In this document: piece after piece, positions 13,937-15,106 of the stretch | How the letters are laid out: the number at the start of each line of letters is the position of its first letter | How positions within the stretch are numbered: the first letter of the stretch is position 1 | Source of the DNA: Turneriella parva DSM 21527 | GTDB taxonomy: Bacteria > Spirochaetota > Leptospiria > Turneriellales > Turneriellaceae | Assembly (NCBI RefSeq): GCF_000266885.1 | Contig: NC_018020.1 | Span: forward strand, 4,030,001-4,094,000 | Direction of reading: 5' to 3' | Length of the DNA: 64,000 bases | Notes under the pieces: model-generated | What the model saw: only the letters and a program-made list of their open reading frames with translations | Told to the model about the DNA's origin: nothing | Database searches by the model: none | Translations under genes and position numbers: made by a program

Positions 13937-14203
13937 ATGCTGAATATGGTGACCCGGCTCTTAAGGGCCAAACCCAATACAACCTGCGGCGACTGCGCGG
14001 CGCGTGAAAAGTATACTTTGCTCAACGCTGCAGTCGACACCTTGCGCGGCGAGTATGCCACCGACGCGGTGCGCGAAGAACGTATGGCGGTCTGCAAAAG
14101 CTGCGAATACCTGGCGCTTGGTTCAAACTGTAAACTCTGTGGCTGCTTTGTGCACCTGAAAACCCGCTATGCGGCTGCCTCGTGCGATATCAACCGCTGG
14201 TAG
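13937..14203 (+). CDS. Small CxxC zinc-binding protein (DUF6171-like)
   Basis: 88 residues, no signal peptide. Cysteine pairs CGDC (17-20), CKSC and CKLCGC plus a final Cys near the end (AASCDIN) suggest one or two structural metal sites. The CKSCEYL...NCKLCGC arrangement is familiar from short uncharacterised bacterial proteins that I associate with DUF6171. It starts one base after the methyltransferase stop and is probably cotranslated with it. Function unknown. The giant palindrome begins immediately after its stop codon. Confidence 0.7.
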   Translation: MLNMVTRLLRAKPNTTCGDCAAREKYTLLNAAVDTLRGEYATDAVREERMAVCKSCEYLALGSNCKLCGCFVHLKTRYAAASCDINRW

Positions 14204-14206
14204 CCC

Positions 14207-14418
14207 GGTGACCAGGCGGGAACTCGCCAAGCCGGAAATAGAGCGATTTTTCTCTGAAATTTTTGGCGCACTTTCGCTCAAGAGCGAAAAATCGGCGCAA
14301 ATTCTGGCGGCTTCGCCACTTGCAGAGCGAATCGGCCCCGATTCGCGGGGGAATTTGCGTCGATTCGCGCCAAAAATTTCAGAGAAAAATTGCGCCCGCG
14401 AGTTCACGCCTGGTCACC
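14207..14418. repeat. 212-base branched palindromic element
   Basis: The segment folds on itself almost completely. Outer arms: a 12-bp perfect pair (14207-14218 with 14407-14418, GGTGACCAGGCG/CGCCTGGTCACC) and a 7-bp pair (14221-14227 with 14398-14404). Next is a 24-bp perfect pair (14246-14269 with 14367-14390), then a 9-bp pair (14296-14304 with 14351-14359). Inside these sit a small TCGCTC/GAGCGA hairpin (about 14273-14286), TGGCG/CGCCA (14305-14318) and GCGAATCGG/CCGATTCGC (14327-14346). It fills the gap between two convergent genes. It may act as a bidirectional terminator, a structured RNA or a MITE/REP-like element; no target duplication is evident. Confidence 0.85.
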
Positions 14419-14422
14419 CAGG

Positions 14423-15106
14423 CTAAGGCGCCATGTCGAGCGCCACCGGCCCTTCGGGCGACAGACACAGCGCCCGACCGTCGGGCAGCAAAGTCTGAAA
14501 CTGCAACAGCTCTTCTGATATTTCGCTGCGTTTAATAAAGGGCCACGCGACGCTGTTGTAGCGCGCGATAAAATCGGCATCGAGATTCGGCACGCCACCA
14601 GAAAATGCCGTGCGCACCGCTTTCCAGAGCTGCAACCAGAGTTTTTGCACCCTCAACGGGTGGCCCGCCGCGAGCGCGAGCGAGTTAGCCGTGCCGGCGA
14701 TCTCGCGGGGAAAATCCTCACTATTGACATTGACGCCAATACCGACAACGACGCGATGAGGATCTTCAGAGTTCTGCGAGATGAGCACGCCCGCGAGTTT
14801 TTTACCCTGCGCCACGATATCGTTCGGCCAGCGCAGGTTAACCTGCGCGTAGAATGACAGAGCGTTCTGCAGCGCCAGGCCAACACCCGCCGAGATCGCC
14901 CCCGGATCAACTTTTGCCACGGGCACAATCATCGAAAACGCGAGATTTGTATCTGCACTACCTGAAAACCAGCTACGCGTGAGTCTGCCACGGCCTGCGG
15001 TCTGCACCTTCGCCCTGACGGTGTGCCACGGGTCAAGGTGGGTAATACGCTCGATCAGCCAGCGATTGGTCGAATCAACCTCGGCAAGCGTGGTAAAGAG
15101 CCGCAC
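14423..15106 (-). CDS. birA: Biotin--protein ligase, catalytic form without HTH domain
   Basis: 227 residues. The BirA/LplA-type catalytic core is present: DSTNRWL, the AGRGRLTRSW adenylate-binding loop, LRWPNDIVAQGKKLAGVLIS and VGIGVNVN. A short C-terminal SH3-like tail follows. The N-terminal DNA-binding domain of bifunctional BirA is absent, so it biotinylates carboxylase subunits but should not repress biotin genes. It follows the small membrane-protein gene by three bases and ends next to the large palindrome, which probably terminates it. Confidence 0.92.
   Translation of the reverse strand: MRLFTTLAEVDSTNRWLIERITHLDPWHTVRAKVQTAGRGRLTRSWFSGSADTNLAFSMIVPVAKVDPGAISAGVGLALQNALSFYAQVNLRWPNDIVAQGKKLAGVLISQNSEDPHRVVVGIGVNVNSEDFPREIAGTANSLALAAGHPLRVQKLWLQLWKAVRTAFSGGVPNLDADFIARYNSVAWPFIKRSEISEELLQFQTLLPDGRALCLSPEGPVALDMAP

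Follow-up and report, generated by a model that had tools for sequence, protein, structure and literature searches.

A palindromic MITE family with a conserved branched fold in the spirochaete genus Turneriella

Why is the space between two convergent genes of Turneriella parva DSM 21527 filled by a palindrome of more than 200 nucleotides, and what keeps its fold so elaborate? The locus lies in the window, the stretch of 64,000 nucleotides analysed here (NC_018020.1, positions 4,030,001 to 4,094,000), between a gene matching Pfam DUF6171 (13937–14203, + strand) and birA, which encodes a biotin ligase domain (14423–15106, − strand); both genes are intact. The first-pass annotation of this DNA had described 12-bp ends, a perfect arm of about 24 bp and three inner hairpins, and had considered a mobile palindromic unit (MITE or REP-like), a structured RNA transcribed from its own promoter and a strong bidirectional terminator. 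The palindrome is real: it lies where it was placed, fills the convergent gap and contains all of the parts described. As RNA, nucleotides 14187–14438 fold at −141 kcal/mol compared with −85.2 ± 4.9 kcal/mol for 200 dinucleotide shuffles (z −11.4), and the complement strand reaches a z of −10.4. Reading frames overlapping the palindrome gave no Pfam match and are taken as non-coding.

Family search and alignment (A1) place the exact element at 14208–14417 (210 bp) in + orientation. It is bounded by a left terminal inverted repeat, GTGACCAGGCGGGAACTCGC (14208–14227, + strand), and a right one (14398–14417, − strand) that differs from the left at a single position. Between them lie, all on the + strand, (i) a stretch of the left arm without pairing (14228–14242), which is asymmetric in nearly all copies, (ii) the long arm P2 (14243–14269 paired with 14367–14393), (iii) the region of inner hairpin H1 (14270–14289), (iv) the inner arm P3 (14290–14304 paired with 14351–14365), and (v) the inner hairpins H2, GGCGGCTTCGCC (14306–14317), and H3, GCGAATCG..CGATTCGC (14327–14346), the latter being the best-conserved part of the family.

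The first-pass annotation had proposed searching this genome and its relatives for the 24-base arm and the 12-base ends, and the palindrome proved not to be a single copy. In the complete T. parva genome (4,409,302 bases, two contigs), 18 dispersed full-length copies were found on both strands with 70–83% identity to the window copy, counts that rest on the search tools. Full copies measure about 202–214 bp across the family and 202–212 bp in T. parva, each with 20-bp terminal inverted repeats at both ends, which in T. parva are of the type GTGACYNGGCGGGAACTCGC. The family splits into subfamilies, and separate versions have been amplified in other Turneriella genomes, with end type GTGACTAGGCGGGAACTCGC in G009 (105 end matches), GAGCCTGTGCGCCAACTCGC in G010 (66) and GAGCCTGTGCGGGAACTC in G012 (61), while two strongly diverged copies in G007 have a much altered end, GGGGCTGCGCGGCAGGTCGC. 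A covariance model detected copies in six of the seven Turneriella genomes (T. parva and five others) and none in the rest of the 296 Spirochaetota genomes searched, with filters so strict that weak matches may be missed. Across 84,980 species, the exact 20-bp end occurred in two Turneriella metagenome genomes and at five lone sites elsewhere, a number about as expected by chance, to which we attribute them. Phage and plasmid collections gave no match to the element, and the family has so far been found only in the genus Turneriella.

The flanks of the copies record movement. In 47 copies that reach 100 bp or more, 4-base flanks match at 77% of positions, compared with 20–32% at other lengths or offsets, and 25 of the 47 show a perfect 4/4 duplication, where 0.9 were expected and 2000 shuffles gave at most 5. 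Perfect duplications were also present in 10 of 20 further copies, a set that takes in deletion derivatives and copies at contig ends, and the strongly diverged G007 copies are flanked by perfect duplications of CTGT and CATT. At the window site the duplication reads CCCG (14204–14207) and CCAG (14418–14421), decayed to three identical positions of four; its left copy adjoins the DUF6171 stop codon (14201–14203), and the birA stop codon follows at 14423–14425. The earlier statement that no target duplication is seen was thus wrong. Gene order is conserved in three related species, in which the stop codons lie only 7–9 bp apart at the same site. Since the distance from DUF6171 to birA, stops included, is 225 bp in T. 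parva and 14 (G011), 15 (G007) and 13 bp (G010) in these relatives, the window copy was inserted there, adding its 210 bp and a further 4 bp.

The copies are dispersed and end in terminal inverted repeats, 4-bp duplications flank them, relatives have the site empty, and the element is non-coding and shorter than 500 bp. From this we conclude with high confidence that the palindrome is a copy of a new MITE family, presumably moved by cut-and-paste and bearing a conserved branched fold, as the mobile-unit reading had anticipated. From the ends and the duplication, a DDE-type transposase supplied in trans and acting on the 20-bp ends is the most likely agent of movement; a 4-bp staggered cut just after the stop codon would yield a duplication that keeps both neighbouring genes intact. 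Copies would later lose their interior by deletion, as suggested by short remnants of 28–60 bp with intact duplications; interior deletion is expected of long palindromes. Against the MITE reading stand the window copy's own imperfect duplication, the simple gene model behind the 3′-end count given below, the fact that an ordinary IS-derived MITE would need no branched fold conserved throughout a genus, and the helper search: in the complete T. parva genome no transposase with matching ends was found, every good end pairing with another about 210 bp away, and no autonomous element was found around single ends in the draft genomes G009, G010 and G012 (families searched: DDE_Tnp_1, DDE_Tnp_1_2 and rve). 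Within these genomes and families the element is an orphan MITE, whose helper may have been lost from T. parva, may fall within gaps in the draft assemblies or may have less similar ends.

As helper candidates, we examined the three multi-copy rve insertion sequences (ISs) of T. parva and two DDE_Tnp_1 genes, all with unrelated ends, and an alternative end, GAGCCTGTTTATGATC, which led to another small copy and not to an IS. The rve-type elements measure about 1.3, 1.06 and 1.14 kb (L323, L342–L349); their copies are 98–100% identical where compared, so IS activity in T. parva is recent.

All 18 T. parva copies are intergenic, and a gene 3′ end lies within 15 bp of 12 of them, whereas 12.8% of the window's intergenic bases lie that close to one, gene positions being taken from a crude, simple codon-usage model made for this analysis. 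Orientation relative to the nearby gene is mixed without bias among the T. parva copies, and copies adjoin genes in all arrangements. A gene remains intact when 4 bp at its stop codon are duplicated, and this may account for the copies kept there. Read-through transcripts would carry a very stable hairpin at the gene 3′ end, as with ERIC and QMITE2.

The position between convergent stop codons and the very stable stem would suit a strong bidirectional terminator serving both genes, but a search for intrinsic terminators, defined as a GC stem with a U run behind it, found none in the window copy on either strand, the structureless gap of 7–9 bp in the three relatives speaks against an ancestral one, and the varied arrangement of neighbouring genes does not fit such a role; we consider this reading, put forward in the first-pass annotation, very unlikely. 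Still further from the data is a REP/BIME element mobilised by a RAYT, a Y1 transposase, which we regard as barely conceivable. REP/RAYT palindromes are 20–40 bp long with a tagged end, depend on a Y1 transposase and make no target duplication. The Turneriella element shares with them its palindromic, extragenic nature; some of its remnants, palindromes of only 28–34 bp, carry the family ends, and RAYT-type Y1 genes are present in T. parva and the genus. Against this, Y1 transposition does not produce 4-bp duplications, the element is about 210 bp long and the palindromes adjoining Y1 genes are unrelated to it in sequence, which makes the label REP-like, taken strictly, wrong. The separate REP/RAYT systems of Turneriella have palindromes such as CGTTGCCACGGGTTTAAACCCGTGGCAACG next to their Y1 genes (flanks of L229, L230, L235 and L233).

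We analysed the fold on an alignment of 42 full copies and 218 columns. RNAalifold predicts 74 pairs, of which 50 show compensatory double changes. When the terminal repeats are left out, the 55 interior pairs hold in 95.6% of cells (shuffles 75.8%), and double-change cells number 444, compared with 123 in shuffles and 65–85 when partners are slid; the covariation score is 0.548 (0.177 in shuffles, at most 0.153 with slid partners). Both sides have changed in 40 of the 55 interior pairs, so that the check for compensatory changes suggested in the first-pass annotation yields strong covariation. Length and branching hold at 56–82% identity to the window copy, the asymmetric bulge of the left arm and the small hairpins are kept in nearly all lineages, and the branched fold is near-constant in length across the genus, even where the terminal repeats have been rewritten. 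Over long evolution the sequence has changed and the elaborate fold has persisted.

Two processes could maintain such a fold. In one, the + strand RNA is selected and the copies are transcribed, making the element an RNA-bearing MITE whose RNA might, for example, help its own spread, be processed by RNase III or stabilise mRNA ends. The interior covariation and the persistence of bulge and hairpins argue for it, and selection on RNA predicts an excess of G-U over A-C on the transcribed strand. With pairs chosen without strand bias, we count 90 G-U and 33 A-C cells. Among private changes the numbers are 43 and 23 (p 0.019), and the RNA folds better on the + strand in 38 of 42 copies. The copies are related, these counts are not independent and the strand bias is modest; it hints at RNA-level selection. 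Neither a conserved promoter nor an orientation bias relative to host genes accompanies it: the window copy contains no sigma-70 promoter consensus, and the best promoter matches in the family differ in position from one subfamily to the next. No Rfam 15 family scores above its gathering threshold; the only match, sX15, reaches 20.5 bits compared with a cut-off of 55, and assignment to a known RNA family is rejected. Of the earlier suggestion that a structured RNA is expressed from its own promoter, the structured part thus gains from the covariation and the one-strand G-U bias, and the promoter part does not. We regard selection of the RNA as possible, though doubtful.

In the other process, the sequence of one arm is copied onto the other by template switching within the imperfect palindrome, and young families start out from the corrected version. 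Template switching has been described to homogenise the arms of inverted repeats (PMC7202029, PMC8604942). Consistent with it, both ends change in concert between species (types GTGACTAGG, GAGCCTGTG and GGGGCTGCG), and within single subfamilies double changes that keep a pair outnumber those that break one (43 versus 11). Such DNA mechanics, however, predict no bias of G-U over A-C and should tend to remove the bulge of the left arm and the small hairpins, which persist across the genus. We give template switching close to an even chance of explaining the fold, and both processes may be in play. A transposon with a structured RNA cargo, in which the + strand fold is selected genus-wide while the terminal repeats are repeatedly rewritten and the RNA itself is propagated, not only the ends, seems unlikely to us.

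The element is a MITE family of the ERIC/NEMIS/QMITE2 kind. With ERIC/IRU of enterobacteria (127 bp) it shares a palindromic, dispersed, intergenic nature, a stable hairpin RNA and a place at gene 3′ ends, where ERIC can alter mRNA stability (PMC2229807, PMC10969869). It differs from ERIC in sequence and length, and its 20-bp terminal inverted repeats (TIRs) with a 4-bp duplication of variable sequence contrast with the 7-bp TIRs and TA ends of ERIC; these features set it apart from that family. The Correia/NEMIS units of Neisseria are akin to it: they measure 107–155 bp, have TIRs of about 24 bp and give an RNA that RNase III processes (PMC2229807). They differ in being TA-ended; one form carries an IHF site. 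QMITE2 of Coxiella burnetii (about 160–200 bp, TIRs of 23–29 bp) resembles it, by description, in size and long TIRs and lies mostly in 3′ untranslated regions with a transcript fold of about −113 (PMC10969869; described in PMC5896051). Its duplication is 7–9 bp compared with 4 bp here, and the covarying fold throughout the genus is, in this comparison, specific to the Turneriella element. We found no MITE family reported previously for Turneriella, and none for Leptospira in the literature searched. The family is new, ordinary in kind and unusual in the strictness of its genus-wide branched fold.

With dozens of diverged copies, clean duplications and empty sites, the family is a natural system in which to ask how folds persist within mobile DNA and to separate RNA selection from palindrome-correcting mutation. 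An apparent single-copy structured spacer is here explained as an insertion, a warning for searches for RNA genes in spirochaetes.

Several copies depart from the standard form. A longer form of 249–271 bp occurs in G010 (L127 1501–1760, L214 101–360, L215 101–360) and G012 (L111 1501–1771, L221 101–349), with an additional GC-rich hairpin, CGGCCAAAGCG..CGCTTTGGCGG, located at H3 or immediately after it, at the same place in both species. A 116-bp unit in G010:C9 (L225 101–216) combines the family ends with an unrelated interior, which suggests that the ends alone may be what is mobilised. Three 44-bp palindromes in G009 (L077, L092 and L118, each 1501–1544) consist of two ends only, and their flanks prolong the palindrome outward as inverted sequence with no direct duplication. 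Remnants of 28–34 bp with perfect 4-bp duplications lie at L079 1501–1528, L147 4454–4483, L119 1488–1518 and L142 4669–4702. At L013 1490–1725 (G000:C1:1743154) the target, GGTGACCAGG/CAGGCGG, resembles the family's own end, and this copy was possibly inserted into a remnant copy. A left-truncated copy in G009:C31 (L071, about 1480–1670) has flanks that are inverted repeats of each other, TCGATTAGCTACGCAA and TTGCGTAGCTAATCGA, and is likely a fold-back rearrangement.
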